Source: a virus | Length of the DNA: 44,636 bases | Direction: 5' to 3' (one strand) | Virus record (IMG/VR): IMGVR_UViG_3300032315_001445 | Span: 1-44,636 of that record | In this document: positions 7,971-40,600 of the stretch, piece by piece | Layout of the letters: each line of letters begins with the position of its first letter | How positions within the stretch are numbered: position 1 is the stretch's first letter | Notes under the pieces: generated by a model | Told to the model about the DNA's origin: nothing | What the model saw: only the letters and a program-made list of their open reading frames with translations | The model's database searches: none | Made by a program: the position numbers and the translations under genes

Positions 7971-7984
7971 AAACCATACAGTAT

Positions 7985-12682: not shown

Positions 12683-12700
12683 TGTACTTAATTTTTAGTT

Positions 12701-13292: not shown

Positions 13293-13293
13293 A

Positions 13294-15110: not shown

Positions 15111-15111
15111 T

Positions 15112-17023: not shown

Positions 17024-18161
17024 CAATAATGGCCCATATTTGTAGAAATATAAGTAATGAACAGAGCAAATACGGTGAATAAGACTGTTGATTTTATCTA
17101 AATGTTTTGTAACTTACCAATAGTATTTACGTACTAATGGTAAATATATACATGATAGAGAAATTAAAAATTTTCAAAGAATTATTGGATACAGGTTGGA
17201 ATATAAAACAAGCTGCATTAAAAGCAGGTATCCCACCAAAAAATGTACATTATTATATAAATAAATTTAATTGGAAAGCTTCTGGTAAATACAGAAAATT
17301 TCTAATTAATGACACTTATTTTGATGTAATAGATACGGAAGCTAAAGCATACTTTTTAGGATTTTTTATTGCAGACGGTTATTTGTCTGTTGAGAAAAAA
17401 ATAACTACAAAAAGTACTAGTTTTAGAATATGTATGAATAATTCTATAGATGATCTTGAAGTTGTAAAAAGATTTCAAGAAGAAATATCTTTATACAAAG
17501 AAGTAGAGTATAGAGAAAGAATATTATCAAATATAATTAGAAAGAAACAAGTATGTTTTAGATTTAGTTCTAAATATATGTTTGATATTTTAGTAAATAA
17601 GTATAACATTATACCCAATAAAACTAAAAATATATCTTTTGAATTTCCATTTAATGAAATACCAGAAAAATTAGTAAGGCATTTTATAAGAGGGTTTTTT
17701 GATGGTGATGGTTCTTTTTCTGATAATAATTTACGCTTAATATCAACAAGTTTAGTTTTTGTAAATCAACTTTGTGATATTATAGAAAAAGAATTTGGTG
17801 TTCTAAGAAATATATATACAGTACAAGGTAAAACTGTAGTGTATTATTCATTTAGATTTAATTCTTTTAGACACAAATATTCTTTTATAAGTAGATTACA
17901 TACTTACTTTTATGAAGATTCTACTATTTTTTTATCTCGTAAAAAAGATAAAATTGAAAATTACTTAAATACCGTGGTAACTAGACAAAATAATATTTAC
18001 TAGTACCGTAGAGCGTAGCAGTTGAACCTTGAAAAAGAATATAATACTGCCAAGAGTGTTCTGCCCCTAATTATTAAATTAAAGGGGAAAATGTACGCCG
18101 AACTATAACTTATACAGAAGGTTATAGATGTTAGGATAAAAAGCCTGACGGTAACAAAATG
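17024..18161 (+). mobile_element. Group I intron in the COOH-NH2 ligase gene
   Basis: A 1138-base intervening sequence between GGT (exon 1 end) and CAT (exon 2 start), with U before the 5' site and G as the last intron base, as expected for group I. P7 is GCGTA 18013-18017 with TACGC 18094-18098. A P9-like hairpin follows: CTATAAC 18103-18109 with GTTATAG 18121-18127. The 3' part aligns with that of the helicase intron, where P7 is GCATA/TATGC; this covariation supports the fold. It carries a LAGLIDADG endonuclease gene. The P1 guide pairing was not resolved. Confidence 0.75.
17137..18003 (+). CDS. LAGLIDADG homing endonuclease (ligase intron)
   Basis: A 288-residue protein with two LAGLIDADG helices, YFLGFFIADGYL (about residues 69-80) and FIRGFFDGDGSF (about 187-198). 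Each supplies a metal-binding acidic residue, making a single-chain double-motif enzyme. An N-terminal helix-turn-helix (about residues 14-45) probably aids DNA binding. It lies wholly within the group I intron and should cut the intronless ligase allele to spread the intron. The start could be ATG 17137 or 17152. Confidence 0.88.
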   Translation: MVNIYMIEKLKIFKELLDTGWNIKQAALKAGIPPKNVHYYINKFNWKASGKYRKFLINDTYFDVIDTEAKAYFLGFFIADGYLSVEKKITTKSTSFRICMNNSIDDLEVVKRFQEEISLYKEVEYRERILSNIIRKKQVCFRFSSKYMFDILVNKYNIIPNKTKNISFEFPFNEIPEKLVRHFIRGFFDGDGSFSDNNLRLISTSLVFVNQLCDIIEKEFGVLRNIYTVQGKTVVYYSFRFNSFRHKYSFISRLHTYFYEDSTIFLSRKKDKIENYLNTVVTRQNNIY

Positions 18162-18572
18162 CATATCCACATAGGTTACGATAATCCGAATAAGGAAACT
18201 AATTTTAATATTATTAAGCAAATGGATTTATACTTAGGAGTTCCTAGTATAATTCTTGATACACATGCTGAAAGAAGACAATTATACGGAAAAGCTGGTT
18301 GTTTTAGACATAAAAAATATGGAGTTGAATTTAGAACATTGAGTAATTTCTGGTTATTTTCCCCAGAATTAATACTATGGGCTGCTACTAACAGTTTAAT
18401 AGCTGCTAGTAATTTTAAAACTATAGATGACCAAGATTTAATTATATCTTGTATTAATGATAATAATGTAGAATTAGCTAGGCATTTAGTACATAAGTAT
18501 TCAATACCTATGCCTTTAGATAGAATAGAAATAAAAGGATTAGTTTATCATGATAATAAAGTATATCAGTAA
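18162..18572 (+). CDS. COOH-NH2 ligase type 2, exon 2
   Basis: C-terminal 136 residues of the split ligase. It begins HIHIGYDNPN, completing the GGHIHIG motif with exon 1, and contains CFRHKKYGVEFRTLSNFW, the EFR-type motif typical of this ligase superfamily (also in the amidoligase at 32150). The end overlaps the PolA start by 23 bases. The presumed role is ATP-dependent formation of amide bonds on a small peptide or envelope component. The substrate is unknown. Confidence 0.78.
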   Translation, partial: HIHIGYDNPNKETNFNIIKQMDLYLGVPSIILDTHAERRQLYGKAGCFRHKKYGVEFRTLSNFWLFSPELILWAATNSLIAASNFKTIDDQDLIISCINDNNVELARHLVHKYSIPMPLDRIEIKGLVYHDNKVYQ

Positions 18573-20669: not shown

Positions 20670-21359
20670 CAAGAACTAAGAATCATAGCGCAGGGTTCTC
20701 AAGAGCCTAGCTGGATTAATGCATATAATAGTGGAGCTGATTTTCATTCTAGTACTGCTTCTTCTGTATTTAAAGTAGATATGGATAAAGTAACTGAACC
20801 TAGTCCTTTACTTAGAGGTAAATCTCCCAGACAAGCTGCAAAAAATATTAACTTTTTATTAGCTTTTGGAGGTACTGAATACAAATTATCAGAAGATTTA
20901 TTAATACCTATTGATGAAGCTAAAAGTATGATAGTAGAATATTTAGCAAAAGCACCTAAATTAAAACAATATTTTGACAATTGTTCTAATTATGCTAAAA
21001 AGCATAGATATATTAGGTCATTTAAACCTTTTTCTTTTATAAGATGGTTGCTACCTAATCAATTTAGACCAGATGCAATTCATAGAAGAGCTTTAAATAC
21101 TCCTATACAAGGTACTGGAGCTATTATGACTAAATTAGCATTAATATACATTAGAAGATATATTAAAGATAATAATTTACAGGATAAAATAAAATTAGTT
21201 CATGTTGTGCATGATGCTCCTTTAACTGAATGTCATGAATCTATTGTAGAAGAATGGGCTCTAATCAAAAAAGAACTAATTAATAAAGCTGGTAAAGTAT
21301 TTATTACAGATATACCAGTTTTATCAGATACAAAAATAAATACCTATTGGGAAAAATAA
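20670..21359 (+). CDS. polA: Family A DNA polymerase, exon 2 (palm and fingers)
   Basis: C-terminal 229 residues. It opens QELRIIAQGSQEP, the end of motif A, followed by motif B RQAAKNINFLLAFGG (the R..K...N...YG finger helix, with F for Y) and motif C VHVVHDAPLTE. Motif C usually reads HDE; here Ala replaces the Glu next to the catalytic Asp. With exon 1 the enzyme has 617 residues and should replicate the phage genome together with the helicase and primase encoded downstream. An in-frame ATG at 20781 is not the real start. The TAA shares its last base with the next ATG. Confidence 0.9.
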   Translation, partial: QELRIIAQGSQEPSWINAYNSGADFHSSTASSVFKVDMDKVTEPSPLLRGKSPRQAAKNINFLLAFGGTEYKLSEDLLIPIDEAKSMIVEYLAKAPKLKQYFDNCSNYAKKHRYIRSFKPFSFIRWLLPNQFRPDAIHRRALNTPIQGTGAIMTKLALIYIRRYIKDNNLQDKIKLVHVVHDAPLTECHESIVEEWALIKKELINKAGKVFITDIPVLSDTKINTYWEK

Positions 21360-23441: not shown

Positions 23442-24002
23442 ATGGTAGTTGCAATAGATATAGATAAAATAGCTGCTGCTAAAATAAATTTACAGCAATA
23501 TATTCTTCTATATTCTATTGTAACTAATCATTTAGAAATTTATATAAAATATCTAAGTAATATTTATAGTATAGAAGAGTATAAAAAAGATGTTAACTAT
23601 TTAGTTGCTAATGAGTTTTTAGTTTGTACAGATATGGTTGATTATCCTTTAGAATCTTTATTAGTTACTTCTAAATGGAATACATTAGAAGATGCTGATA
23701 GTAATTCTATATGGAATGAATTTATATCTGTATATCCTACAGTAACCCCAAATAATAGAAGATTAAAAGTAGATATAACTCAAAATAAAAAGAGGTATCT
23801 AAAACAAATACAAAATTCTATTAGTATGCACCAAATAGTTATGCAAGCTTTAAAAGATGAAATTAAAGATAGAACTATTAATAATAGTATGAATTATTTT
23901 CCTATGCTAACAACTTATATAAATCAGAAAAGATGGGAATCATACATAAATAGTAATGACGATAGAAACTCCAGTAGAGAGTGGTTCAATAAAGATATCT
24001 AA
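23442..24002 (+). CDS. Hypothetical helical protein upstream of helicase
   Basis: A 186-residue protein, largely helical, with many Ile, Tyr and Asn residues (QQYILLYSIVTNHLEIYIKY). Its length and position directly before the DnaB-like gene would suit a helicase loader or accessory, but no motif shows this. It overlaps the helicase start by 47 bases in another frame. Confidence 0.5.
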   Translation: MVVAIDIDKIAAAKINLQQYILLYSIVTNHLEIYIKYLSNIYSIEEYKKDVNYLVANEFLVCTDMVDYPLESLLVTSKWNTLEDADSNSIWNEFISVYPTVTPNNRRLKVDITQNKKRYLKQIQNSISMHQIVMQALKDEIKDRTINNSMNYFPMLTTYINQKRWESYINSNDDRNSSREWFNKDI

Positions 24003-24939
24003 TTTTGACAGAGCATTAGAAGAGATAAAAAGAGGGCAATTAGGTTTAAATGAAGGTCTTCCTCATGGAATTCCAGGATTAAATGATTATGTACCCAATG
24101 TCCAACAAAAATCATATTATCTATTAGGTGCCTCTACTGGTTGTGGAAAAACATCTTTAGCTGATAGTATGTTTATTTATTCTCCATATGATGCTTTTAA
24201 AACAGGAGATACTACCTACGATTTAGATATTACTTTATACTCTTTTGAAATAGATATTATATCTAAAATTATAAAGGGTATTTGTTATAAGATTTATAAA
24301 GACTTTAATATTATTGTAGATGTAAATTATATATTATCTAGAGGTAAAAATAGAATCAGTAAAGAAATATATGATAAGGTTATGTTGTACAGAGAGTACT
24401 ATGACCAACTAAGTGATAAAGTCACTATATTTGACTCTTCTATAAATCCAACAGGTATATATAAGTATTTAGAAGCTAAAGCAGAAAAGTTAGGTAAAAT
24501 AGAATACAAGTATATTACTACTAAAAATGATAGAGATGAAATTGTTAAGATAAAAGTATTTGATAAGTATACTCCTAATAATCCTCAATTAATAAAAATA
24601 TTTATTATTGACCATATAGCTTTAACTAAAGGAGAAAAAGGGCTAACAAATACTAAGTCTATAATTGATACTATGTCAGAGTATTCTATTAAACTAAGAA
24701 ACAATTATTATTATTCTCCAGTAATTGTACAGCAGCTATCTTATGAGATAAATGACCCTATTAGAGCTAGACTAAATAGGCTTTCTCCAATGTTGAGTGA
24801 CTTTGGAGATAGTAAATACACAACCCGTGATGCTGATTTTGTATTTAGTTTATATAGTCCTATGACACATGGGCAAGAGTTTTATATGGGATACGACATA
24901 AGATTATTAGGAGATAGATTTAGGGCTGTTGAAATCCTT
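23956..24939 (+). CDS. DnaB-like replicative helicase, exon 1
   Basis: First 328 residues of a RecA-fold hexameric helicase. Walker A is GASTGCGKTS (about residues 58-67), Walker B is IKIFIIDHIAL, and VIVQQLSYEI matches the DnaB H3 region. The usual DnaB N-terminal helical domain is absent; only about 45 residues precede the core. The exon ends GDRFRAVEIL. Joined to 25918 it reads LKGRNGGIG, the DnaB arginine-finger block. It should unwind DNA at the fork with the PolA and primase encoded here. The ATG lies 47 bases inside the upstream gene, and no later ATG would keep Walker A. Confidence 0.82.
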
Positions 24940-25917
24940 AAACAAATTTTTTGATATTTCGTAAACTGCTATATGAGCAGTGGAATATATAAAATAACTA
25001 ATACTATTAATGGAAAAGTTTACATTGGAAGTGCTATCGATATTAAACAAAGATTTCGTACACACAAGCATCTTTTAAAAAACAACAAACATTTTAATAA
25101 TCATTTACAAGCTTCTTGGAATAAGCATAAAGAATATGCATTTACATTTGAAGTTTTAGAATATTGTTTGTTAGTTAGAGAAGACCTAATTAACAAAGAA
25201 CAATACTATATCGATTTATTAGAGTGTTGTAATCCATTAAAAGGGTATAATAAAAAACCACATGCTTCTTCGTCTTTAGGAATAAAAATATCTGCTCAAG
25301 GTAGATTAAATATGTCTATAGGTCAAAAAGGTAAAAAGCAATCTAGAGAAGCAGTTGAAAGAAGAGCGGCTAAAATGAGAGGGCATACATTTAATAAAGG
25401 TATAAAAAGAACCCCTGAATTTTGTAAAAGAGTTGCTGAATTTCATAGTAAGCCTGTATTACAGTATACTTTAAAAGGCAAATTTATTAAAGAATTTTAT
25501 TCTATTAAAGACGCTGCTGAATCACTTAATATACGAGCAAGTGGTATATCAGCTGTCTGTAAAGGTAAAAGAACAAAATGTGGTGATTATTGTTTTTTAT
25601 ATAAAAATGGTGTAATAGAAGATGTTATTACACCAAGATTACGAAAAAATGCAAGAAGTAATGAGCATTTGTGCAGTAATGTACAAAATGAATTGGGTGA
25701 ATTCAGTGGAAGTCTTGTAGAAGATAATACTGAGCTAAGTGCTAATTTAAATGATTAGTAAAAGTGCAACGCATAGTTATTGAAACTCATAATTGAGAAT
25801 ATAATATAACCAAGAGCGCCCAATACCCCAAGTGGGTAGTGATATATGCTGAGCTACAGCTATAACAAATGAAACTGTAGAACTATAGGATAAAAAACTT
25901 ATAGGATAACAAAACTG
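24940..25917 (+). mobile_element. Group I intron in the helicase gene
   Basis: A 978-base intervening sequence after CTT, ending in G before AAA GGC CGT. P7 is GCATA 25771-25775 with TATGC 25845-25849. A P9-like hairpin is CTACAG 25854-25859 with CTGTAG 25875-25880. The 3' region aligns with that of the ligase intron (AATATAATA, CCAAGAG, then AGGATAAAAA and ATAACAAAA near the end), so the two ribozymes are relatives. It nevertheless carries a GIY-YIG gene instead of LAGLIDADG. The insertion falls in codons of the conserved arginine-finger motif. The junction is inferred from protein continuity. Confidence 0.78.
24973..25758 (+). CDS. GIY-YIG homing endonuclease (helicase intron)
   Basis: A 261-residue enzyme. 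The N-terminal GIY-YIG nuclease domain (residues about 3-95) shows SGIYKITN, VYIGSA, then R near residue 27 and E near residue 76 as catalytic residues. Then come basic NUMOD3-like repeats (about 110-155) and a NUMOD1-like DNA-binding region (LKGKFIKEFYSIKDAAESL, about residues 163-210). This domain order is typical of phage intron endonucleases. It lies inside the intron, 13 bases before P7. Confidence 0.9.
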   Translation: MSSGIYKITNTINGKVYIGSAIDIKQRFRTHKHLLKNNKHFNNHLQASWNKHKEYAFTFEVLEYCLLVREDLINKEQYYIDLLECCNPLKGYNKKPHASSSLGIKISAQGRLNMSIGQKGKKQSREAVERRAAKMRGHTFNKGIKRTPEFCKRVAEFHSKPVLQYTLKGKFIKEFYSIKDAAESLNIRASGISAVCKGKRTKCGDYCFLYKNGVIEDVITPRLRKNARSNEHLCSNVQNELGEFSGSLVEDNTELSANLND

Positions 25918-27438: not shown

Positions 27439-28419
27439 ATGCTACTAAAAAATGTAAATAGAGCTGAGTTATCTAGAGACTTTATTTTTAGTAAACTTTC
27501 TCCATTAGAAATATACCAAAGATATATACCAAATTATAGATACAATAAATTATTACCATCTCCTTTTAGAACTGAAGAATCTCCGTCTTTTATAATAAAT
27601 AATTTTAAAGGGGATTTATTGTTTCATGATTTTGGAACTAATACAGTTGGAGATTGCATAAAATTAGTAATGATGCTAAATAATTGTAATTACTCTGAAG
27701 CACTATCCATAATTTATAGTGATTTTAATTTGAATAAAGTAACTAATACAATTATTAAAACTACTAATTTAGAGAGTAAACCAGATAAAATTAAGACTAT
27801 TATTAAACCTAATATCAGTATAATGATGAATGCTCCCTATCTTTATTGGGAGCAATATGGCGGTATATCCAGAGAATTACTAAGATTATTTGAAATAAGA
27901 TATAGTAACTCAGTATTAGTAGTAAAAGAAAAAGAATACAATTTATATGGTAGCGAAAGTAACCCTATGTTTGTATATTTTTGCTACGATGAAAAAAAAG
28001 AATTTATAGGTTATAAAATATATAGGCCTTTTTCAGCTAAAGATGATAAGTGGATTTCTAATACAAATGCAAAAGTAGTATTTGGAATTAAGCAATTAGC
28101 TGAAAGTGGTGATATATTGATAATAACTAAAGCATTAAAAGACGTAGTATGCCTACATAATATAGGATATAACGCTATTGCTTTTAATAATGAACATATA
28201 TTACCTAGTACTGATTTTTTAGAAAGTCTTAGAATAAGATTTAAAAATATATATTGTTTTTTAGATTATGATGACACTGGTATAAGAGATTCAGATAAAT
28301 ATTTTGAATTAGGAATACAACCTATATTCACAATGGAAAAGCAACATAAAGACCCAAGTGATTACATAAAAGAATATGGTAATCATAAGTTAATTGAATT
28401 AATAAACTCACAAATATGA
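27439..28419 (+). CDS. DnaG-like primase with TOPRIM domain and metal-less CHC2-like domain
   Basis: A 326-residue primase. The N-terminal part (residues about 30-95) follows the CHC2 zinc-domain pattern (SPFRTEESPSF, then FHDFGTNTVGD), but all zinc-binding Cys/His positions are replaced. The TOPRIM part has LIITKALKDV (about 231-240) and CFLDYDDTG (about 273-281), with the DxD metal site. It should make RNA primers for PolA alongside the DnaB-like helicase. It is short for DnaG, with no separate helicase-binding domain visible. It overlaps the next gene by four bases. Confidence 0.82.
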   Translation: MLLKNVNRAELSRDFIFSKLSPLEIYQRYIPNYRYNKLLPSPFRTEESPSFIINNFKGDLLFHDFGTNTVGDCIKLVMMLNNCNYSEALSIIYSDFNLNKVTNTIIKTTNLESKPDKIKTIIKPNISIMMNAPYLYWEQYGGISRELLRLFEIRYSNSVLVVKEKEYNLYGSESNPMFVYFCYDEKKEFIGYKIYRPFSAKDDKWISNTNAKVVFGIKQLAESGDILIITKALKDVVCLHNIGYNAIAFNNEHILPSTDFLESLRIRFKNIYCFLDYDDTGIRDSDKYFELGIQPIFTMEKQHKDPSDYIKEYGNHKLIELINSQI

Positions 28420-28790
28420 CTGACACAAAAGAAACTCAAGTTAATTTATTAGTGTATGGTACTTTAAAACCAGGGCACTATAATTTTGATCGCTTTTTTA
28501 ATGAAACCAATGTAAAAATTGGAGAGGAAATTAAACTACCTGGATTTAAAATGTATAGTTTAGGTGCTTATCCATGCGTAGTACATACTGAGAATAATGA
28601 AGATATTATTACAGCAGTAAAATTAAAGAATGTTAAATCTAATATTTTTAATTCTATTAATAATATGGAATTAGGAGCTGGTTATGTAAGAAAAGAAATT
28701 AAATTAGATAATGAAACATATTTTATATATGTATTTAAAGCTAATAATATCCACAATTTAAAAGTAGTCGAAAATGGCAACTGGAACTAA
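28416..28790 (+). CDS. Gamma-glutamylcyclotransferase-like (GGCT/AIG2) protein
   Basis: A 124-residue protein of the GGCT/AIG2 fold. It shows LVYGTLKPGHYN (about residues 9-20), LPGFKMYSLGAYPCV (about 43-57) and MELGAGYVRKEI, in which the Glu near residue 88 is the expected catalytic base. These enzymes split gamma-glutamyl amines, releasing 5-oxoproline. Here it overlaps the ATP-grasp gene and begins a run of amide-bond enzymes. It probably trims or removes a gamma-glutamyl unit made by the ligases. Confidence 0.85.
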   Translation: MTDTKETQVNLLVYGTLKPGHYNFDRFFNETNVKIGEEIKLPGFKMYSLGAYPCVVHTENNEDIITAVKLKNVKSNIFNSINNMELGAGYVRKEIKLDNETYFIYVFKANNIHNLKVVENGNWN

Positions 28791-29673
28791 AACTAAAGTA
28801 GTTACAAAAAATTATTTATTAATTAAAAGTAGGCACCCCAGTCATAATGTTATTAGAGGTAAAATACTAGTTCCTAAAGGTTATAAAGCTATTTTTAGGT
28901 TAGGTAGTACTACTCCTATAAATGTTAATTTAAAAGGCAAACAACTAATAGAAATAAATTCTACAGATTCTATTAGAAATAGTGCTAGTAAATTGTTAAT
29001 GAAACAATGCTTTACTAGAGCTGGTGTTAAAACAGCTGATTGGTTTACTTATTATGGTAGTCCTAACGGAGGACAATTATTTTTAATAAATGGGCAACCT
29101 ACTAAAGATAATATGGGTACTCAAATTAAAGATTTACCATTTCCTATTGTAGCTAAATCACACCATGGTTCTCGTAACGAAGGTAATACTAAATTAAATA
29201 GTTTAGAACAGTTTGAAGCTTGGAAAAAAGGTAAGAATTTAAATAATTATATTTTTGAAAAATTCTATAATTATAATAAAGAGTATCGTTTGCATGTAAC
29301 TAGAGATGGCTGCTTTTACGCAATTCGCAAAATGCTAAAATCTGATACTCCTGAAAATAGTAGATGGTTTAGAAATGACTCAAATTGTGTATGGGTATTA
29401 GAAACCAATCCTCAATTTAATAGACCTAGTAATTGGGATGATGTAGTAGCTGAGTGTGTTAAAGCACTAATTTCTGTTGGATTAGATGTAGGTGCTATAG
29501 ATTTGAGAATACAATCTTCTGAAAAAGATAAAAAGAAAAAAGATAAAGCACCTAACTTTATCATTTTAGAAACTAATTCAGCCCCTTCTTTTGGTGAAAT
29601 TACAGCAGAAAAGTATACTACTGAATTGGAAAATATCATTAACAATAAAATAAAAATACTATGTGTGGAATAA
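28774..29673 (+). CDS. ATP-grasp amide ligase
   Basis: A 299-residue ATP-grasp enzyme. It shows FPIVAKSHHGSRNEG (about residues 124-138; Lys plus the Gly-rich loop that holds ATP phosphates), YIFEKFYNYNKEYRLHV (about 161-177) and FIILETNSAPSFG (about 261-273; the E-x-N Mg site). It is of the RimK/YheC-D kind, which activates a carboxylate as acyl-phosphate and joins an amine, often an amino acid. It overlaps both neighbours, which encode a cyclotransferase and an amidotransferase. This points to stepwise peptide-like synthesis. The substrate is unknown. Confidence 0.85.
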   Translation: MATGTKTKVVTKNYLLIKSRHPSHNVIRGKILVPKGYKAIFRLGSTTPINVNLKGKQLIEINSTDSIRNSASKLLMKQCFTRAGVKTADWFTYYGSPNGGQLFLINGQPTKDNMGTQIKDLPFPIVAKSHHGSRNEGNTKLNSLEQFEAWKKGKNLNNYIFEKFYNYNKEYRLHVTRDGCFYAIRKMLKSDTPENSRWFRNDSNCVWVLETNPQFNRPSNWDDVVAECVKALISVGLDVGAIDLRIQSSEKDKKKKDKAPNFIILETNSAPSFGEITAEKYTTELENIINNKIKILCVE

Positions 29674-32144
29674 CTGGATATGTAGGGCCAACCTATATTA
29701 ATAAAAATGTATTAGATTTCTTTATGGTATCTAATTTAGTTAGAGGAAAAGATTCAGCTGGATATTTTAATGGAAAAAGCATATTTAAAGCTGTTGGCGC
29801 TGTCGATGAAAACTTACTAGTTAAGTTTCCTATAACTAAAACTAAAGTGTTTATAGGCCATTGCAGAGCAGCTACAGCAGGCTATCATGTAACTCTTAAT
29901 AATGCTCACCCTTTTAGCTTTAAATCATTTGTATTAGTACACAATGGTACTATTACGAATATAGAAGCAATGAAAAAAGAAGTGCCATTTCAATATCAAT
30001 TAGAAGATGGAACATGGGATACTTGTACAGTAGACTCAAAATATTTAGCTTATAGACTACATAAAGATTTTAATACAGCCAATAAATTTAAAGTATTAGA
30101 AGAGTATACAGGAGCAGCAGCTATTATATTTTCTTTTCTAGATGAATCTGGCGCATTACGGTACGCAGTTTATCATGATAAAGAAAGACCTATGTTTATA
30201 GGGGAATTAAATAATGGAGTAGTATTCCATTCTTTAGAGTATTCATTAAATATAGCTGGCGCTACTAATATAAAAGAAGTTCCTGTAGAAACAGTATTTA
30301 TCTATGATAATACTGGTAACTTAGTATCTGAAACAAAAATAGATCGATTAAAGAAGAAGCCAACTACCTATGTTACCTACACAGATTCTACATGGAGAAG
30401 TGGACATTCTAATATTATTGATTATACCAAAGATGAAACAGAAACAGATAAAATAGCTAATAAAGGTTTGAAGCTATTTAATGATCTTACTAAACCCAAA
30501 GCTGATATTAGTACAAATATAGTTAGTTTACTTAATAATAACCCAACTATGGCTGACCAAATGCTAAAAAGATTAGAAACTAGAGATAAATTAGTAATTC
30601 CTATTTTAGGAATAACAAACACTAATGAAAAGATAAAAACCTTATATACTACAACTAAATCTGTTGGGGCATCTTACAAAGAAAAATATGGGACTATAAG
30701 AGTTGAAAACGCTAAAGTTAATATAGATTTTATTTTAAATAACATGTATTTTGTATTTAATACTAATGGTATAACTGATGCAAATATTAAGGACTATATA
30801 GATTCTGATTATTACAAAAAAGCTAGTGATGTTATAGAAATAAACTTAGAACAGAAATTTAAGTATTATGAAGCAAAAGACTGTAAATTATTACCTTTAA
30901 CTAAAAATATATTATATACTCGTTCTAAAAAGGATACATATAAAATAATTAAAGGGGGTAATAATACACTTAAACTTTATATATATATTGATGATATATC
31001 TTCTTATGTTAATATAGATAAACTGCATTTAATTTATTATTTAAGTGACGAGTCAGCAGCTGCTGGTATTAATGTTCTTAATAGTATTGTTACTGCTAAT
31101 TTAAATCCTGTTAAAACAACTGTTTCTAAAACAAAGTTAGAAGCTTTTACAGTTAAACAAACAGTATATAAAACTAATGATCGTATAATATTGACTCCTA
31201 GTATTGTAAAAGGTATTATAGTTCAATTATTATGTGAAAATACTAAAGAATTATTATGTAATCCTGAAACTAAAGTATTAAATTATTCTAGTGTTGCGAT
31301 GGCAGAAATACGTGAGTCTAAAAAAGACTTCTCAGTATTAAAATCGATAATCAATACATATATAAACAGCTTTGTTGATAGTAGCAATACTTTTACCCAT
31401 GATAAACTTACTGGTAGAAAGAAAAATTTATGTTTAACAGGTATTCTTAGTAATATACGTACTCTTGATTCTCCTTTTGATTTTAATTTAAAAGGTGATA
31501 TAGCAGTAGACATTACTATTGCTTTACCAGTAGCATCTACTAATAAATTTGTAGAATCACTTTCATACCATACGCTTAGTGTAAATACTAAATTCTTTGA
31601 TGGTACACTTATTACTGTAATGGATTTAGAATCTTATTCTAAGTCTGCAAAAGAGTTATTATTTCATACTTGGATAACTGATTCAGCTTTTAGAATGTAT
31701 TTAGTAGATATAATGGAGCTTAAATATAATGAGCCTATTTCAGAGTTTGAAAATCAAATACAACTTGTAGCTGGGCTTACTCTTATGCAACGTATTACTA
31801 CATCTTTAGTAAAGATAACGCATAGTCAAAATAATCCTATTATGAGTAAGTTTAAAGATGATGAGTTTGATTTGATATCTGATGAAGATTTATTAGAAGG
31901 AAATAAAGCTAAAGACGTTACTGAAAGTGTATTAGATAATTTCTCTACTCAAATTTCTCATCCAAGCTTAATAGGAATAACTGAAAACGTAAGTAATATC
32001 AGAAGAATAATAGATGAAGCTGAAATTAAAGATGGCATTACTTGGGAAACAATGGAAGCTATAGATGACAATTTAAAAGAAATCGAAGAATATACTAATG
32101 AATTGGATGGAGCAATACTAGAAATAATGGAGTTAAATCACTAA
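29661..32144 (+). CDS. Class II glutamine amidotransferase fused to a long novel C-terminal region
   Basis: An 827-residue protein. The N-terminal 240 residues are an Ntn-type glutaminase: MCGITGYVG with nucleophile Cys2, RGKDSAG, GHCRAATAG (about residues 74-82), NAHPF and LVHNGTI. It resembles the GlmS/asparagine synthetase glutaminase half and should release ammonia from glutamine. The remaining 580 or so residues match neither the SIS nor the synthetase domain. They are mixed alpha/beta and end in an acidic helical segment. The start is fixed by the need for Cys2. It lies between the ATP-grasp and amidoligase genes. Confidence 0.85.
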   Translation: MCGITGYVGPTYINKNVLDFFMVSNLVRGKDSAGYFNGKSIFKAVGAVDENLLVKFPITKTKVFIGHCRAATAGYHVTLNNAHPFSFKSFVLVHNGTITNIEAMKKEVPFQYQLEDGTWDTCTVDSKYLAYRLHKDFNTANKFKVLEEYTGAAAIIFSFLDESGALRYAVYHDKERPMFIGELNNGVVFHSLEYSLNIAGATNIKEVPVETVFIYDNTGNLVSETKIDRLKKKPTTYVTYTDSTWRSGHSNIIDYTKDETETDKIANKGLKLFNDLTKPKADISTNIVSLLNNNPTMADQMLKRLETRDKLVIPILGITNTNEKIKTLYTTTKSVGASYKEKYGTIRVENAKVNIDFILNNMYFVFNTNGITDANIKDYIDSDYYKKASDVIEINLEQKFKYYEAKDCKLLPLTKNILYTRSKKDTYKIIKGGNNTLKLYIYIDDISSYVNIDKLHLIYYLSDESAAAGINVLNSIVTANLNPVKTTVSKTKLEAFTVKQTVYKTNDRIILTPSIVKGIIVQLLCENTKELLCNPETKVLNYSSVAMAEIRESKKDFSVLKSIINTYINSFVDSSNTFTHDKLTGRKKNLCLTGILSNIRTLDSPFDFNLKGDIAVDITIALPVASTNKFVESLSYHTLSVNTKFFDGTLITVMDLESYSKSAKELLFHTWITDSAFRMYLVDIMELKYNEPISEFENQIQLVAGLTLMQRITTSLVKITHSQNNPIMSKFKDDEFDLISDEDLLEGNKAKDVTESVLDNFSTQISHPSLIGITENVSNIRRIIDEAEIKDGITWETMEAIDDNLKEIEEYTNELDGAILEIMELNH

Positions 32145-32149
32145 TAAAA

Positions 32150-33997
32150 ATGTTTGCAAAAGTCATCGAGTCTAAGTATCCAGCTAGACTTGGTAATATA
32201 TATAGGGTAGTTCTAGTTAATGAGCTACCCTATTATATAACTAAAAAAGGATTAAAAGTTAAGTTTATACCAAAATACGAATTTTTAGAATTTATACACA
32301 TAAAAAGAAATATAAGTAACATAGAGATATGCGAAATCATACACACCAATAATATGAGTGAAATACAAAAAGACATTGTTTTAGGTAATACTGTTACACT
32401 AAGAAGTGGCAAATCTACATCTATTGACAATACCATTAAAATAGGTGAATACTATTATGAAAAAGAAAAAGATGTTGTACTTATAGAAGATAAATGGGTA
32501 TTAAAAAATAACAATATAGTAAAATGCGAAATTAGTGGAGAATATGATTATATTGTAAATATGGATTATGGAATTATAGGTAAATCTGGTGAACATTTAG
32601 TTAAAGGCTTTTTTAAAAAAATAAAAGGTAACCCTAATTTAGCACCTTTAATTACAACTTTAAAATGTAAAGATTCTAAATTAGTAGCTAAAGCTGTAAA
32701 AGAAGCTAAAGAACCTATAGGTATAGATATTCACGGAAAAAGCATATATTCTGAAGCTAAAGTATTAATACCTAAATTAAACATAAGAGATAATTTAGAT
32801 GTAACTCCAGATGGAGAGCTAAAACAAATAGACCATACTAAAATATCTATTAATTTAGATAGTGATATATTAGGTAGTATTAATGCTAAAGAGGCTTTTT
32901 CTCATGGTGTATTTTATACTCCAGAAGCAAAAGGTGTTATAGTTAAAATGCCAAGACCTACATATATATCTTTGGATTCTAAAAAGAAAAGAACTGGTAA
33001 TATAGAAATAGATATAGAAAATGGTACTGATTCTAAAACATTTAATTTATTAAGTGATATGCAATATACATTTGGAGTTGAAATTGAAACTTCTAGTGGT
33101 ATTATACCTGCGTATGTTCTAAAAACTTTAAATGTAGAAAGTATGAGAGATGGGTCTATTGATTCTGGTGAGTATGTTACAGGAGTTTTAAAAGGTGATG
33201 CTGGTTTAGTTCAACTAAATAAATTAATGTATGAAATATCTAAAAGATGTAGTGTTAATAGAAAATGCGGTATTCACGTTCATATTGGTAGTGCTGATTT
33301 TGATATAGCATTTATAGTTGCAGCTTATAAATTAGGTTTAGCTATACAAAATGATTTAAAATTATTTTTAGCTCCTAGTAGATTTAATAATAAGTATTGT
33401 AAAAACTTAAAAAATCTAGAATTTACAAATACTCCTACTCTTATAAATGATTTTAATAAAATAGTAGAGTATTTAGCACATGGTAAAAATGTTAGATTTA
33501 TTACTCCAGCAGATAAATACCCTATTGAGCAAAGATGGCCTCATGGAGTTGGATGGGGTGTAGAACCTAGATATGTATGGTTAAATCTTATTCCTACAGT
33601 ATTTGTTAGAGAAGATAGAAATCATACTCCAAACAGCGAGATAGTAAAAGATAAAAAATTAACTCATACTATAGAATTTAGAAATCACCATATTACTAGA
33701 GATTTTAATAGTGTGTATACATGGGTACTATTTTGTATGAGTTTTGTTAGATTCATAGAAGAAAATAAAAATGAAATAGCAACAACAGATATTGGAAAAT
33801 ATAGTATAAGTGACATATTAAATTCTATTTCTAATGTAAGTTTAAGAAGAAAAATAATTAATGATTTTGAAGAAAGAAAAGATAAATTTAAAATAAAAGA
33901 GTTACTTAAAAAAGTTAGTGAGGAAAAATTAGCTAGTGGAGAATATGATGTATCTATTTATGAAGAAGAAACAAAAACAAATAATATATTTAAATAA
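32150..33997 (+). CDS. Putative amidoligase with long N-terminal extension
   Basis: A 615-residue protein. The C-terminal half (about residue 304 onward) is an amidoligase of the glutamine synthetase-like fold: YTFGVEIETSSG, MRDGSIDSG, CGIHVHIG (about residues 370-377) and HTIEFRNHHI (about 504-513), the metal and ATP-binding blocks. The first 300 residues are an unrecognised, beta-rich region. It should form an amide bond using ATP. Flanked on both sides by class II amidotransferases, it is the core of the module. It is a second, distinct member of the superfamily besides the ligase at 16598/18162. Confidence 0.85.
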   Translation: MFAKVIESKYPARLGNIYRVVLVNELPYYITKKGLKVKFIPKYEFLEFIHIKRNISNIEICEIIHTNNMSEIQKDIVLGNTVTLRSGKSTSIDNTIKIGEYYYEKEKDVVLIEDKWVLKNNNIVKCEISGEYDYIVNMDYGIIGKSGEHLVKGFFKKIKGNPNLAPLITTLKCKDSKLVAKAVKEAKEPIGIDIHGKSIYSEAKVLIPKLNIRDNLDVTPDGELKQIDHTKISINLDSDILGSINAKEAFSHGVFYTPEAKGVIVKMPRPTYISLDSKKKRTGNIEIDIENGTDSKTFNLLSDMQYTFGVEIETSSGIIPAYVLKTLNVESMRDGSIDSGEYVTGVLKGDAGLVQLNKLMYEISKRCSVNRKCGIHVHIGSADFDIAFIVAAYKLGLAIQNDLKLFLAPSRFNNKYCKNLKNLEFTNTPTLINDFNKIVEYLAHGKNVRFITPADKYPIEQRWPHGVGWGVEPRYVWLNLIPTVFVREDRNHTPNSEIVKDKKLTHTIEFRNHHITRDFNSVYTWVLFCMSFVRFIEENKNEIATTDIGKYSISDILNSISNVSLRRKIINDFEERKDKFKIKELLKKVSEEKLASGEYDVSIYEEETKTNNIFK

Positions 33998-34002
33998 TAT
34001 CA

Positions 34003-34845
34003 ATGTGTACAATAGTATGTAAACCTTTAGGCACTGCATTATCTAAAGAAAGTGTAGTTGCAATTATTAATAACGCTGTGTCAGCAAATAAAGATGGATT
34101 AGGTATAATATTAGCTAATAAAACTAACCCTCATTATACAATATATAAATCTTACAATAAAGATTATATTGCAGAATTATCAGCATTCTATAATGGTTCA
34201 CAAAGGTCTATTATTGATTTAATGTGTGACCCAAATTTTATGTTTTATTTACATGCTAGAATATCTACTTGTGGCTCTGTTGGTATTATAAATGTCCATC
34301 CTTTTAGAATTCCAAAGATATATTCTTCAAATAATATGTCTGGGGGTACTATTTTAGAAAATATAAAGCATACATTAACATATAGAAGTAATCCTGTTAG
34401 TTATGCTGGAGTTGTCGAAAATAATAGCAATATAAAATATAATGAAGGCTTTTTAATGCACAATGGTGGTTTTAGTCAAGTTGGGGGAAGTCCTGTAACC
34501 ATAGATACTACAACTTACCATTTAAGTGATACTCATGAAATGGCTTTAAGTGTTTTACCACATTTACTAGGAGATTATTCTGATAGAGAAAAAATGACTA
34601 AAATATTTGGATATAATAGAGTGCTAATAGTAACTAATACTACTAATAAATACCCATTATTTTTTGGAGACTGGTGTAGTATGAAAGTTGGAGATAAAGT
34701 AATTTATGGGTCTAATAGCACTATAGCTGATAACAAAGTAATTATGAGAAATGGAGATACTATTAAAGGTGAAGACCTAACTAATAGGCTTAGAACTATA
34801 ATAGATGAAGATATAAAAGCTAGAATTGCAGTTAATATTAATTAA
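34003..34845 (+). CDS. Second class II glutamine amidotransferase-like Ntn hydrolase
   Basis: A 280-residue protein with N-terminal MCTIVCK, so Cys2 becomes the nucleophile after Met removal. NKDGLGIILA (about residues 31-40), FYLHARISTCG (about 82-92), NVHPF and LMHNGGF follow in the order of class II glutaminases. It has no partner domain and is much shorter than the enzyme at 29661. It may supply ammonia to the amidoligase or hydrolyse a gamma-glutamyl bond. It closes the amide-chemistry run and is five bases from the amidoligase gene. Confidence 0.82.
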   Translation: MCTIVCKPLGTALSKESVVAIINNAVSANKDGLGIILANKTNPHYTIYKSYNKDYIAELSAFYNGSQRSIIDLMCDPNFMFYLHARISTCGSVGIINVHPFRIPKIYSSNNMSGGTILENIKHTLTYRSNPVSYAGVVENNSNIKYNEGFLMHNGGFSQVGGSPVTIDTTTYHLSDTHEMALSVLPHLLGDYSDREKMTKIFGYNRVLIVTNTTNKYPLFFGDWCSMKVGDKVIYGSNSTIADNKVIMRNGDTIKGEDLTNRLRTIIDEDIKARIAVNIN

Positions 34846-34891: not shown

Positions 34892-35365
34892 ATGTCTAGA
34901 AAAATTAAGAAAGAACGATACCTAAAAGCTAAAATTCCATTTCAAAGAAAACGATCTGGTAAAAAGGTACAAAATGCTACACAAGTTATAGTAGGAGATA
35001 CTACTTATAAATCTAAATTAGAATTTAGAATGGCATCAGCTTTAGAAGCTAATAATATATCTTTTGGATATGAAACTTTAAAGGCAATTTTAGTAGAAGG
35101 GTTCGAATATTTAGGAAAGAAAGTACAACCAATTACATATAAACCTGATTTTATAGTAACTGATGCCACCATAACATATATAATAGAATGTAAAGGTTAT
35201 GCTAATGATGCCTGGCCACTACGAAGTAAATTATTCAAAAAATATATAGCTGACAATAATTTAAATTATAAATTTATAATAGTTAAGAATAATCAACAAA
35301 TACAAGAAACAGTTAATATAATATTAAATGATAGATTACAATTTAATACCAGCGATCAACCATAG
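34892..35365 (+). CDS. PD-(D/E)XK endonuclease (DUF1064/T7 endonuclease I-like)
   Basis: A 157-residue nuclease with a basic N-terminus. E44 in SKLEFRMASAL, D86 in YKPDFIV, and E99 and K101 in IIECKGY form the complete E...D...ExK catalytic set. The arrangement is that of DUF1064 proteins and of phage endonuclease I, which cut branched DNA or Holliday junctions. It probably resolves replication intermediates before packaging. It overlaps the next nuclease gene by 38 bases. Confidence 0.8.
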   Translation: MSRKIKKERYLKAKIPFQRKRSGKKVQNATQVIVGDTTYKSKLEFRMASALEANNISFGYETLKAILVEGFEYLGKKVQPITYKPDFIVTDATITYIIECKGYANDAWPLRSKLFKKYIADNNLNYKFIIVKNNQQIQETVNIILNDRLQFNTSDQP

Positions 35366-36260
35366 TGAATTAGTTAGATTTATTGAATGCAATAGTGCTA
35401 AAAAGTATAAATATTATTCACAACATGATTTATGGGGTAAAACTACACCAAAATTAATAGGAACTCTTGTTCATTTGAAAGTATTTAAACCTTTAGAGTA
35501 CGAAAAAAGAGTGGTAGCTACTCCAAATTTACCTGGAGGTATGTTTCCGAATTTTGTTTCTAATTATATTAAAGCCTGTAAAAATTTAAACTTAGATTAT
35601 CGAGAGTATGATAATGACGTACTAAAAGTATGTTATGCTAATGCTGGATATAAGGTTGGGTTTGATTCAGCTTTAATAATTTTAAAACAAGAATCAATTT
35701 CAGAATATATAGAAAAACATTTAAATTCTGAAAAAGATACAATATTAGTTTCTATTGAAGAAGAAACGGAAGTAACTAATATCTATAATGCTTTAGTAGC
35801 AGATACAGATACTTTTAATTTTCTAAATCAAGAAAAACAAGGTGAAGAGGTGTTTACTGAGCATACTCTAGTAACTAAAATAATAGTTAATAATAATGAA
35901 ATCGAGGTCAAATGTGTTATTGATAAATACATTATTAATCATGAAAGCAAAACTATTAAGTTATTAGATTTAAAAACAATTGATGATATAAATAATATTA
36001 GGCATTCTGTTTATAAATATGGAAATGATACTCAACAAGCTTTTTATACTAAAATATTAGAAAGTGAATATCCTGGTTACAGGGTTGAATTTTCTGCTTT
36101 AGTATTCATTGAAAAGAAATCTCCATATTTTACAGTTTGTGTAACATTATCTGAAGATACATTATTTAGAGCATTTGAAAAAATAAAATATAAACTTATA
36201 GAATTTAATGAAAGACGACAGATGAACAAGTGGGATGGATTACCGTCTTTAATAATATAA
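35328..36260 (+). CDS. RecB/Cas4-family PD-(D/E)XK exonuclease
   Basis: A 310-residue nuclease with the RecB-family motif order: IGTLVHLKVF (motif I, His near residue 49), VKCVIDKY (Asp near residue 199), LLDLKT (about 212-217, DxK) and QQAFYTKIL (the QxxxY motif). It should degrade or resect double-stranded DNA ends. With the RecA-like ATPase and SSB-like protein it would form a phage recombination set. It starts within the end of the DUF1064-like nuclease gene. Confidence 0.8.
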   Translation: MIDYNLIPAINHSELVRFIECNSAKKYKYYSQHDLWGKTTPKLIGTLVHLKVFKPLEYEKRVVATPNLPGGMFPNFVSNYIKACKNLNLDYREYDNDVLKVCYANAGYKVGFDSALIILKQESISEYIEKHLNSEKDTILVSIEEETEVTNIYNALVADTDTFNFLNQEKQGEEVFTEHTLVTKIIVNNNEIEVKCVIDKYIINHESKTIKLLDLKTIDDINNIRHSVYKYGNDTQQAFYTKILESEYPGYRVEFSALVFIEKKSPYFTVCVTLSEDTLFRAFEKIKYKLIEFNERRQMNKWDGLPSLII

Positions 36261-37675: not shown

Positions 37676-40600
37676 TTATTTAGTTCTTGGCTCTATTATT
37701 TTTTTAGTTGCTTTATAAGTTCTATAAAAGTTAACATACCCAGGTAATAATTTCTTTTTAGCTTTTTCCCATTGAGCTTCTCTTCTAGTAAATGTTTTTT
37801 TAGGTAATTTTTTAGAAGGGTTAACCATATACTCTCCCCAATCTAAAGGATTATTAGGTAGACTTTCAGTAGTAACTCTTTCTTTGCCTTCTTTAGATAT
37901 CATCAAAAAAGAAGTTTCTAAAATAAAAGATAATATATCTACAGTATAATTAAGAATAGGAGCAACATCCCTAACAATAGTTACTAAAGCTATGGGATTT
38001 ACATAAAAAGTTAATTCTGTATTTAGTTTCTTCCATATATTTAGTATAAAGCTTTCCCAGTATTCTAATTCTCTATCTTCATCATCTTTAATTGCCATAG
38101 GAAGCATTATTAATAATAATGAAGTCCAAATTAATAATCCAGCTAAATTCTTGCGCATATTAGCTTTTTGCCAATCTGTAAATTCATCTTTATTAAATCC
38201 ACTTTTTATATATTTTCCTAATGTTACATATCTACCTTCTGTTTTAGCTTTCCAAATATCACTATATTCTCCACCACTAAATCTATTAGCTATACCTTCA
38301 GCCATAAATGACCGATAAGTTGCAAATATAGTGTACCAGCCTCTTTTAATAGCCACAGGATTTTGAGCTTGATTATAGTTACCAATAGACCTTTTTAATA
38401 TATCATTAGACATAGCATTAGCTCTTGCAATAGCTTGCTTTACTTCTTCTACTTCTTCTTTAGTTAGTTTAGTAGAGTCTATTCTACCATTATCATTTAA
38501 TATATCAAATAAAGAAGTTTCTACCTCACCTATAGTTACTTTAGTATTTTTATAAACAGCAGTTATAATACTTACTTTAGGTAATGTTTCTCCTAAAGCC
38601 ATTAGAAAGTCTGGGCTTAAAGTACTTAAAGTTCCATTTATTAATTGTTGTATTAGAGCTAGTTTCTTTCTAACACTTATAGAACTAGACTTATTAGTTA
38701 TTTTATGCTCTTTATATAGTCCTTCGAAAATACCAGTATTTCTAGTTATTGCAAATACTTTACCTAAACTGATAGGGTCTTTAGCTATTTTAAATGATGG
38801 AATACTAGAAGATAATAAATTCCAAAATACACTAAATATGTCTGTAGTGTTAACTCCTAATCCTCCAGTAGACCAGATACTAATACTAATCATATTAGCT
38901 ATTAAATTTACAACAGCTGCTTTTACGTTCCATCCTAAAGTAGTAAAGTAGAATAATTTTAGTAATGGATTAATTATAGTTTTTTCCCATGTAAAAAGTC
39001 TAGTTGTCTTTGGCAACGGAGCTAATTCGGTTAAATTTACTTTTTTACCTTCCAATAATGATTTTACATATATATCTACTGCATTACTAATTTTGTTTGG
39101 AGATAAATCACTTGTACTTATTTTTTTCTCATTACCTTTTATTTTTACTATTTTAGCTTCTTTTAATTCATCAACTATATTTTTTAAAAGCATTATGGCA
39201 TCTTCAATACTTTTTTTATTTTTATAGTCTATGGCGCCTAAAGCAAATAACCTTAAATCATCATATAAATTTGGTTTTATTTTTTTAGAGCCAATTGCTT
39301 TAGAATTATAAGCATTAATTTTCATTGTAGCCAAATAACTTTTTGGTCTACCTAATGAATCTAGTACAGGTCTAATTTCTGTTTCTTCTGAAGTAACACT
39401 TTTTACTGTATTATCTATAATACCATCTCTAAGTTCTTTAAATTTATTCATTAAACTAGTTACAGAATTTATAGTAAGTATCTCCCCTAGTATATTTATC
39501 CCATGCTCACTAGCTGGTAGAAAATTACTATCTAATTCATTAGTCATAGAATTAGGAAATACATCTACATAATGATTTAGTGCATCTCTAAAAAAATTAT
39601 AAAATTCTTTTAACTCAGGAGTTTGAACTATTTGTTCATAGTAGTTATCATAATACCCAGTTTCAACCCCGCTAGTAAAAAATTTTCTTGGTACATATGT
39701 TATATAGTTCCATTTAGTATAATCTATAGAAGTATTATTTATAGTTACAGTTTCTGAAGTATCATAGAATCTTTCAGCTGCTTTAAATGGGGAATTCTTA
39801 TTATCCCATATTTGCTCTAAAATAGTGCTATTAGGGTCTGATTTAAAAGACTCAAATATAATCTCTCTTTCACTTAGAAATTTGTTTATCTTTTCTTCAG
39901 CTTTTTCTAAGTAATAATCATAATAATCTCCTAAATGCTCTTTTAATTCTTGCTTATGTCTATTTATTTCGGCATCTGAAGGCATAGTACCACCTAAAGT
40001 AACAAATGCTTCTGGAAATAATAACCTAGGGTCTAATACTATAACATTTTCTTTTTTCCATAAATTCCAGCGTTTTACTTGTGCTACTTTTTTGTAATTA
40101 GTAGGTTTATTTTTTATTCGTTGGTCATAGAATTTATTAGAAAATTTATCTACTAATTTACCAGTCCATACTCCATTATCTAATTGAAGAAATATAGTGT
40201 ACTTACCATATTTAGTCGGTAATCTATTTCTTTTACTATACTCTAAAAAATTATTATTTATTCTATCTGATTCTTCTTCAAATAAGTAATATTCAGCTCT
40301 AGTTTTTTCATTTATATTATATATAGTATTATATATAAGTCTAGTTAAAGGGTTATTTACTGTACTTAAATCTCTAAAATAATAAGGCAAGTCTCCTATT
40401 GGCTGGGCTCTTTGAGTTATATTGATAGCATCTTCAAAATTACCCTCTTCATCATTATAATATAAACCATATAGTACAGCTAATGATTTAAGTATTTGTT
40501 CGGGTTCTATATCTTCTATAACTGCACCTAATTCCTTATCTATAGTTTCTTTATTGCCTTCATATAATAGTTTAACTATAATACTCTGTTTTTTATCTCT

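Follow-up and report, generated by a model that had tools for sequence, protein, structure and literature searches.

A putative amide-bond enzyme cassette in a phage related to Crassvirales, with a second class II glutaminase and a split COOH-NH2 ligase gene

A linear 44.6-kb fragment of a virus record (IMGVR_UViG_3300032315_001445, positions 1 to 44,636; here, the window) carries a set of putative amide-bond enzymes that appear to constitute one functional module, a reading supported by their co-conservation in related and unrelated phages. The cassette is already known in kind, since phiEco32, PaP3/LUZ24-like and RIO-1-like phages and the Cellulophaga phage phi14:2 (Crassvirales) carry the same set. 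Distinctive of the window are an additional class II glutaminase gene downstream of the amidoligase, an unrecognizable tail of ~590 residues on the first glutaminase and the lack of a Peptidase_C26-type hydrolase within these 44.6 kb; because the window is a fragment, however, absent cassette members prove nothing. We hold with moderate confidence that this is a crAss-like-phage variant of the amide-ligase cassette of the RIO-1/LUZ24/phiEco32 type, whose acceptor is most likely an envelope precursor, so that the host wall would be altered. The phage is a relative of the crAss-like phages (Crassvirales) known from the gut and the sea. Crassvirales-type synteny was present (Sak4, primase, cassette, and endonuclease and exonuclease block), and no capsid, terminase or portal hallmark genes were found in the fragment.

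Five cassette ORFs lie end to end on one strand at 28416-34845, as an earlier note on this DNA had described, with overlaps of 17 and 13 bases at the first two junctions and gaps of 5 and 5 bases at the next two (Table 1). The first ORF overlaps the primase gene by 4 bases. Four cassette families and the second class II glutamine amidotransferase (GAT) are placed directly 3' of the primase, and the COOH-NH2 ligase is found 10 kb away beside polA. All five families of the module (GGCT, ATP-grasp, class II GAT, amidoligase and COOH-NH2 ligase) are in the window, the last only after joining of its exons. The families proposed earlier for the five contiguous genes were recovered with Pfam and PHROG profiles or, for the fifth, by iterated profile search and class II residues. 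Catalytic residues had been described as intact in all six enzymes; this held for the five cassette proteins, which keep the residues invariant in relatives, but not for the COOH-NH2 ligase as an unjoined ORF.

Table 1. Cassette genes, flanking genes and parts of the split COOH-NH2 ligase gene, with positions in the window
Feature	Coordinates	Strand	Evidence or remark
COOH-NH2 ligase exon 1, 142 codons	16598..17023	+	phrog_3815 residues 2-139, E=1.4e-26; boundary by sequence and homologues
Intron-like insert in COOH-NH2 ligase gene, 1138 b	17024..18161	+	Ahead of HxHxG catalytic codons
LAGLIDADG homing endonuclease within insert	17137..18003	+	phrog_4645 E=3.8e-40
COOH-NH2 ligase exon 2, 136 codons plus stop	18162..18572	+	phrog_3815 residues 139-266, E=4.9e-33
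DNA primase, usual left flank of cassette	27439..28419	+	CHC2 zinc finger; same place in phi14:2 and most cassette contigs
GGCT-like gamma-glutamyl(amine) cyclotransferase, 124 aa	28416..28790	+	Pfam GGACT E=8.5e-14; phrog_2520
ATP-grasp (RimK/S6-glutaminyl-transferase-like) carboxylate-amine ligase, 299 aa	28774..29673	+	phrog_2599 E=7.3e-32
Class II glutamine amidotransferase, 827 aa (residues 1-235 catalytic, ~590-residue C-terminal region)	29661..32144	+	Pfam GATase_6 9.7e-10
Amidoligase_2 family ligase (glutamine-synthetase-type fold), 615 aa	32150..33997	+	Pfam Amidoligase_2 E=1.9e-8; phrog_2443 9.9e-19
Second short class II glutamine amidotransferase/Ntn hydrolase, 280 aa, ~33-aa insert	34003..34845	+	Iterated profile search
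PD-(D/E)XK-type exonuclease, usual right flank of cassette	35328..36260	+	phrog_412; own profile across loci

The GGCT-like protein retains the YGTL motif and Glu85, and its nearest solved structure is E. coli YtfP (1xhs). The ATP-grasp ligase is 49% identical to phi14:2 g038 and 42% identical to the cr108_1 counterpart, and has the invariant residues E266, N268, R172, R185 and K128. Cellular versions of the cassette were sought in one genome scan with this ligase, which gave only 4 weak matches to its close family in 84,980 prokaryote genomes. The close family thus seems nearly confined to phages, suggesting that the cassette probably serves a virus-specific pathway.

In the first glutaminase, Cys2 is the catalytic residue, and the invariant C2, R28, H67, R69, N95, G96 and D125 are present. 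It has the marks of class II (Ntn) enzymes: an N-terminal Cys, the GHxR and HNG motifs, Asp residues and, in the predicted model, an Ntn fold. Pairing this model (pLDDT >90 across most of residues 1-230) with solved structures in Foldseek gave GlmS, PurF and EgtC (E=1e-12 to 1e-10); alignments for the structure models were built without rows from the phage collection. The partner region, earlier called novel and put at 580 residues, is real: neither jackhmmer nor profile-profile comparison detected relatives of the ~590-residue tail, and structure prediction gave it no confident fold. The amidoligase likewise keeps its invariant residues (E311, E313, D334, H376, H378, R474, N479, E509 and R511), comprising the metal-binding ExE, HxHxG and ExR residues of Amidoligase_2, and its model has a predicted glutamine synthetase (GS) fold, with a match to YbdK (1tt4). 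A search of viral contigs with the amidoligase as a single sequence returned no matches, and profile queries were therefore required. The second glutaminase matched nothing in Pfam or PHROG and only weakly matched solved structures; its iterated profile search recruited the gene 3' of the amidoligase in ~20 other contigs. It has C2, H84, R86, H153, N154, G155, D176 and S237, all invariant, including the N-terminal Cys, HxR, HNG and Asp residues of class II enzymes, and is probably either a glutaminase or an EgtC-like hydrolase.

The phiEco32-type COOH-NH2 ligase had been placed 10 kb upstream of the cassette, next to polA. Location and family stood; however, the gene is not one intact ORF, and an insert with a LAGLIDADG gene between its halves had been overlooked. 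Joined, the exons give a normal protein of 278 residues (272 bits against the family profile), and the fusion reads RCAGG/HIHIGY, matching unsplit homologues. The insert borders are GGT/CAATAA...AAAATG/CATATC, with U ending the 5' exon, G ending the insert and the reading frame restored. A homologous ORF-less insert of ~300 b occupies the identical site of the gene in another locus, L015 (folding z=-3.6), and the inserts of two others (L042 and L047) end in AACAAAATG or AACAAAATT, at most one codon from the insert site. Borders, frame and ORF-less copy are those expected of a group I intron, but Rfam intron covariance models had no match in the window at the gathering threshold or at E≤10, nor in homologous loci at the gathering threshold; we therefore describe the insert as intron-like. 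The neighboring polA is split in the same manner.

Co-conservation, which the earlier note had proposed as a check, was strong across the ~200 phage loci surveyed, and active sites in homologues were not disrupted. In 136 of 146 loci the gene immediately before the amidoligase encodes a class II GAT; this count includes reduced cassettes that retain the pair without the ATP-grasp and COOH-NH2 ligases. Loci sampled via the flanking primase had all five core genes in 3 cases, none in 18 and GGCT only in 4. Close versions of the cassette were found in cr108_1 and Leptolyngbya phage Lbo-JY46, and phi14:2 has the order primase-GGCT-ATP-grasp-COOH-NH2 ligase-GAT-amidoligase-UDG (uracil-DNA glycosylase). 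Outside this group, phiEco32, PaP3 and a Rhizobium phage have all five core families in differing orders and a Vibrio phage has four; the COOH-NH2 ligase family occurs in 315 of 50,697 phage records. The idea of a single amide-bond module was thus upheld by co-conservation and intact active sites, but a usual member in relatives had been missed, since most carry a PuuD/C26, gamma-glutamyl hydrolase-type partner. PaP3, phiEco32 and the Vibrio phage each have a separate gene of ~200 aa between the COOH-NH2 ligase and the amidoligase; these were considered as a hidden C26, and none matched. Replacement of the missing C26 by the second GAT was not supported either (second GAT in 10 of 64 loci with C26 versus 5 of 13 without; p=0.12).

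The known module has been termed a putative "peptidoglycan modification module" and predicted to alter a peptidoglycan side chain (PMC5498523, PMC11945000); its genes are listed in UFV-P2 (PMC3890496) and partly present in OM43 phages (PMC10580990). No experimental product for any phage version was found in the literature. Like the modules of RIO-1, PSA-HP1, LUZ24/PaP3/UFV-P2/U17 and phiEco32, the window has the same five enzyme families clustered near the primase in the replication region. It differs from the RIO-1/LUZ24/phiEco32 type in its distant, split COOH-NH2 ligase, its additional glutaminase and tail, and its relation to Crassvirales. The neighborhood (primase, cassette, nuclease, exonuclease) is like that of phi14:2 (g037-g041; Steigviridae) and cr108_1. 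Unlike in the window, however, the COOH-NH2 ligase of both is part of the cluster, which is followed by UDG and lacks a second class II GAT; moreover, the GAT of phi14:2 bears a membrane helix, and cr108_1 has a C26 hydrolase.

Such a membrane helix, N-terminal and stopping immediately short of the catalytic Cys, was found on ~40% of cassette glutaminases and was nearly absent from other cassette proteins. Among distinct sequences, 57 start Met-Cys and 43 do not, nearly all of the latter because the catalytic Cys follows directly on an N-terminal hydrophobic helix and a basic linker. Both glutaminases of the window start Met-Cys and lack the helix. We rejected the possibility that gene annotation had created the helix: the extension shows coding constraint (pooled pN 0.10 versus pS 0.23), is present in the deposited phi14:2 gene, and in such genes no Met precedes the Cys. 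A lipoprotein signal was judged unlikely, given basic residues after the helix and Leu at -2. The helix-bearing form comes and goes within groups of close relatives, with 24 changes on the tree, and hence cannot be essential to the chemistry. We found no description of it in the literature searched.

The helices on relatives' glutaminases favor an envelope-directed product. Glutamine would be split by the first class II glutaminase, and with the ammonia released, the adjoining amidoligase would convert a carboxylate to its amide at the expense of ATP. The ATP-grasp and COOH-NH2 ligases may link amino acids or gamma-glutamyl groups via isopeptide bonds; GGCT, with the C26 hydrolase in relatives, may strip off gamma-glutamyl groups or cleave a host form that competes; and the second short glutaminase could supply ammonia or act as an EgtC-like gamma-glutamyl hydrolase. 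Most likely the acceptor would be a precursor of the envelope on the inside of the cytoplasmic membrane, the peptidoglycan stem peptide being the leading candidate, and the altered wall of infected cells might hinder superinfection or prepare lysis. No cassette enzyme was close enough to Mur ligases or GatD/MurT to name the substrate. A more specific version, which we offer as speculation and think rather unlikely, is that the crAss-like glutaminase is made as a pro-enzyme tethered to the membrane, and that cleavage of its helix at a conserved L-[S/G/N]|C site frees the catalytic Cys beside lipid-linked wall precursors; the cassette would then build a phage-specific peptidoglycan stem peptide, and the window would hold a soluble version plus a second glutaminase.

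Gamma-glutamyl groups serve as protecting groups in the Puu/Pau, butirosin (BtrJ/BtrG) and ergothioneine (EgtA/EgtC) pathways, where the same kinds of fold add and remove them, an analogy at fold level only. It is possible, though doubtful, that the cassette likewise makes a soluble gamma-glutamyl compound (e.g., a gamma-glutamyl polyamine or amino-acid conjugate); the GS-fold and ATP-grasp ligases would put the group on, and GGCT, C26 or the second Ntn hydrolase would take it off. Consistent with this, relatives' C26 members match PuuD (6vtv) and probable glutamine amidotransferases (7d4r, 7d50 and 7d53), the best solved match of the amidoligase model is the glutamine synthetase homologue 4hpp, and the EgtC and GGACT matches noted above point the same way. 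However, the membrane helices would go unexplained, the clusters have no consistent amine-metabolism partner gene, and, unlike in the protection pathways, no carrier protein, oxidase or sulfoxide synthase was seen. Protein modification, in which the RimK-like ATP-grasp and its companion ligases would attach amino acids or amides to a protein of host or phage (a ribosomal or virion protein, or RNA polymerase), is in our view improbable: the S6 glutaminyl transferase-like annotation and the location in the replication region agree with it, but a set of three ligases with two glutaminases and one or two gamma-glutamyl hydrolases exceeds the needs of a single protein modification, and no protein substrate gene is consistently in the cluster.

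A role in hypermodifying phage DNA, by addition of an amide or amino-acid group, would suit a cassette between primase and exonuclease, beside UDG in many relatives, and phages use GAT-type domains in Gat-QueC DNA modification (PMC8594841). UDG also occurs in loci without the cassette, however, and was therefore rejected as a member and regarded as a resident gene; in addition, no base hydroxymethylase, DNA kinase or deazaguanine gene was found beside the cassette in annotated relatives or among the scanned ORFs of the window, making this account very improbable. Finally, the clustering could be merely the inherited neighborhood of related phages, with no pathway behind it. GAT and amidoligase distances do correlate at 0.86-0.89 with those of the flanking primase and exonuclease, and much of the co-conservation within crAss-like phages therefore reflects common descent. 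Nevertheless, presence is nearly all-or-none, active sites are invariant, and phiEco32, PaP3 and Rhizobium phages have the set too, as for the most part does a Vibrio phage; since the gene order is reshuffled in unrelated phages, the absence of any pathway is already largely refuted and scarcely credible.

The cassette recurs in hundreds of phage genomes, including those of phages of E. coli and Pseudomonas that are within reach of any laboratory. The GAT-amidoligase pairing, the C26 partner and the membrane-tethered glutaminases of relatives allow sharper questions to be asked of it: which carboxylate is amidated, whether its bearer is a lipid-linked precursor, and whether cleavage in front of the Cys removes the helix.

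The earlier note had described five amide-bond synthesis genes lying end to end at 28416-34845, with intact catalytic residues and a sixth ligase upstream. The arrangement was borne out: five ORFs on one strand are joined by successive junctions of a 17-base overlap, a 13-base overlap, a 5-base gap, and a 5-base gap, and the first shares 4 bases with the primase gene. The last ORF had no curated match in Pfam or PHROGs; iterated profile search grouped it with the short class II glutaminases encoded after the amidoligase in ∼20 other phage contigs, and it keeps all invariant residues of that family (Cys2, His84, Arg86, His153, Asn154, Gly155, and Asp176).

Features of the amide-ligase cassette and the lysis region in the window, with helix-bearing glutaminases of other phage loci (L numbers)
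Feature	Position	Strand	Basis or note
GGCT	28416-28790	as cluster	Pfam GGACT
ATP-grasp, S6-glutaminyl-transferase type	28774-29673	as cluster	PHROGs
First class II glutaminase	29661-32144	as cluster	Pfam GATase_6
Amidoligase	32150-33997	as cluster	Pfam Amidoligase_2
Second, short class II glutaminase	34003-34845	as cluster	iterated profile search, invariant residues
COOH-NH2 ligase, whole interrupted gene	16598-18572		PHROG and profile matches
COOH-NH2 ligase exon 1	ends 17023		...RCAGG
Intron-like insert in COOH-NH2 ligase gene	17024-18161		1138 bases
LAGLIDADG gene within insert	17137-18003		
COOH-NH2 ligase exon 2	starts 18162		HIHIGY...
Endolysin, Amidase_3 type	14279-14809	minus	
Helix-bearing glutaminases	L002:16210-18126; L008, L010, L029, L040, L055, L069, L087, others		

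Catalytic residues are also intact across the cluster. Both glutaminases and the amidoligase keep every column invariant among 19 to 50 relatives. In the GGCT, YGTL and the catalytic glutamate are preserved, as are the metal-binding Glu and Asn of the ATP-grasp protein. The predicted amidoligase structure is similar to those of YbdK, a carboxylate-amine ligase, and of glutamine synthetase homologues, and the confidently modeled residues 1 to 235 of the first glutaminase resemble GlmS, PurF, and EgtC. The ∼580-residue partner region that the earlier note called novel is real: no relative of the last ∼590 residues was detected in the fetched loci, even among the C-terminal regions of other cassette glutaminases, and the predicted model gave them no confident fold. 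Downstream, two adjoining, very long ORFs lie on the minus strand (37676-41605, 1309 aa; 41605-44460, 951 aa). Neither had a significant Pfam match; for the first, phage records gave no match and PHROGs none better than E = 0.1, and for the second, PHROGs gave no match.

The sixth ligase, of the COOH-NH2 type, is present, but its gene is split by a 1138-base insert; joining the exons gives a 278-residue protein that retains all conserved residues and matches the family profile with a score of 272 bits. Homologous intron-like inserts, with or without a homing endonuclease, occur at the HxHxG site of this ligase, or no more than one codon away, in at least four phages: L015 (∼7792-8088) has an ORF-less insert in the same place, with ends and core nearly those of the window's, and inserts in L042 (∼5300-5720) and L047 (∼12450-13450) lie within one codon of it. 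In sequence, the boundaries of exons and insert are consistent with a candidate group I intron, and the inserts of the window and homologous loci had no Rfam intron match. The adjoining polA is likewise in two parts (18550-19716 and 20781-21359), separated by a second LAGLIDADG gene (19762-20580) that shares its PHROG with the one in the ligase insert. Introns are reported to be common in some crAss-like groups (PMC7886860). At 23956-25758, a DnaB-like helicase ORF (332 aa) is followed directly by an ORF (24973-25758) in which a GIY-YIG motif was recognized by eye; this may be a third interruption carrying an endonuclease gene.

A survey of co-occurrence in phages, proposed in the earlier note, was made with profiles built in this analysis and run on loci recovered by ATP-grasp or amidoligase queries. 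The same set recurred, its genes arranged in at least three different orders. In Cellulophaga phage phi14:2 (Crassvirales), the consecutive genes are primase, GGCT, ATP-grasp, COOH-NH2 ligase, glutaminase, amidoligase, and uracil-DNA glycosylase; closely similar versions occur in cr108_1 and a Leptolyngbya phage. Among 81 primase-exonuclease intervals, recruited via cassette genes and including near-duplicates, 69 held all five core genes (the five families just listed between primase and glycosylase), 6 held three or four, and 6 held none there. With recruitment by primase, all five were found in 3/25 intervals versus none in 18/25, and 4 near-duplicates held only a long GGCT; empty intervals were mostly 1.0 to 1.7 kb versus 7.0 to 8.6 kb for full ones. 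In 136 of 146 loci, among them reduced clusters without ATP-grasp and COOH-NH2 ligase, the gene immediately upstream of the amidoligase was the glutaminase. Most relatives have as an additional member a Peptidase_C26 (C26) protein related to PuuD (nucleophile motif GICRG); none was found within the 44.6-kb window. Within the crAss-like set, glutaminase and amidoligase distances track primase and exonuclease distances (r 0.86 to 0.89), so that much of what these phages share reflects vertical descent. The five families also occur in other orders in phiEco32, PaP3, and a Rhizobium phage, and four of them in a Vibrio phage; this recurrence in unrelated phages is a stronger argument for a conserved set than crAss-like co-inheritance.

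Between primase and exonuclease, the cassette-free crAss-like loci L175, L177, L183, and L191 encode a single GGCT-containing protein of ∼322 aa. The cyanophage Lbo-JY46 (Leptolyngbya phage, L003) has, in addition to the cassette, several C26 hydrolases and, immediately upstream of the cassette, genes for PRPP synthetase and nicotinate phosphoribosyltransferase. Directly before the COOH-NH2 ligase, phiEco32 (L205:6827-9008; phi32_87, phi32_88) and PaP3 (L206:2495-4425; orf49, orf50) each have two genes, of 315 to 399 aa; no families were found for these, and the two pairs had no detectable similarity to each other.

Among distinct cassette glutaminases, 57 begin Met-Cys and 43 have the catalytic Cys at a position other than 2. 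Nearly all of the 43 carry, ahead of this Cys, an N-terminal hydrophobic helix (∼18 residues) followed by a short linker (consensus, [IL]-F-K-P-K-x-N-[TV]-L-[SGN]-Cys); a helix and basic linker directly before the catalytic Cys are present in ∼40% of cassette class II glutaminases. Such a helix is rare or absent in all other cassette proteins. The extension is under coding constraint (pN 0.10, pS 0.23; pooled, with nonindependent pairs), and its presence varies among near relatives (24 changes on an 87-row tree). The window glutaminases are of the Met-Cys type, although the window's nearest relatives on the tree (L055, L063, and L092; support 84) carry the helix. Given the positive-inside rule, the basic residues between helix and Cys suggest that the glutaminase lies on the cytoplasmic face. 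Because Ntn amidotransferases require a free N-terminal Cys, we infer that helix-bearing glutaminases are cleaved directly before the catalytic Cys.

In the proposed mechanism, the glutaminase would pass ammonia to the amidoligase, the best-supported step given their strict adjacency and predicted folds. The ATP-grasp and COOH-NH2 ligases would make bonds of the isopeptide or gamma-glutamyl type, and removal of gamma-glutamyl groups would fall to GGCT and C26. The main rival for the product is a soluble gamma-glutamyl compound, since by analogy the Puu, butirosin, and ergothioneine pathways add and remove gamma-glutamyl groups with the same kinds of fold. We favor an envelope precursor as the putative substrate, on the basis of the membrane-tethered glutaminases and earlier predictions (PMC5498523, PMC11945000), of which the second also gives creating endolysin targets as an alternative purpose. 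The Amidase_3 endolysin of the window cleaves ahead of the stem peptide, changes in which it would tolerate; this is compatible with an altered wall and is not evidence for it. Two small ORFs lie upstream of it (region 14279-15357, minus strand); that at 15112-15357 begins with a hydrophobic stretch and may encode a holin.

In the literature searched, with subscription journals and preprints mostly outside it, we found neither a description of the set in crAss-like phages nor, in agreement with the earlier note, an experimental product of a phage version. The gene set itself is already known: its original prediction is reportedly that of Iyer et al. 2009, beside which citing papers name Hardies et al. 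2013. The additions here are a crAss-like variant with paired glutaminases, a ligase split by a candidate intron, and membrane-tethered relatives.
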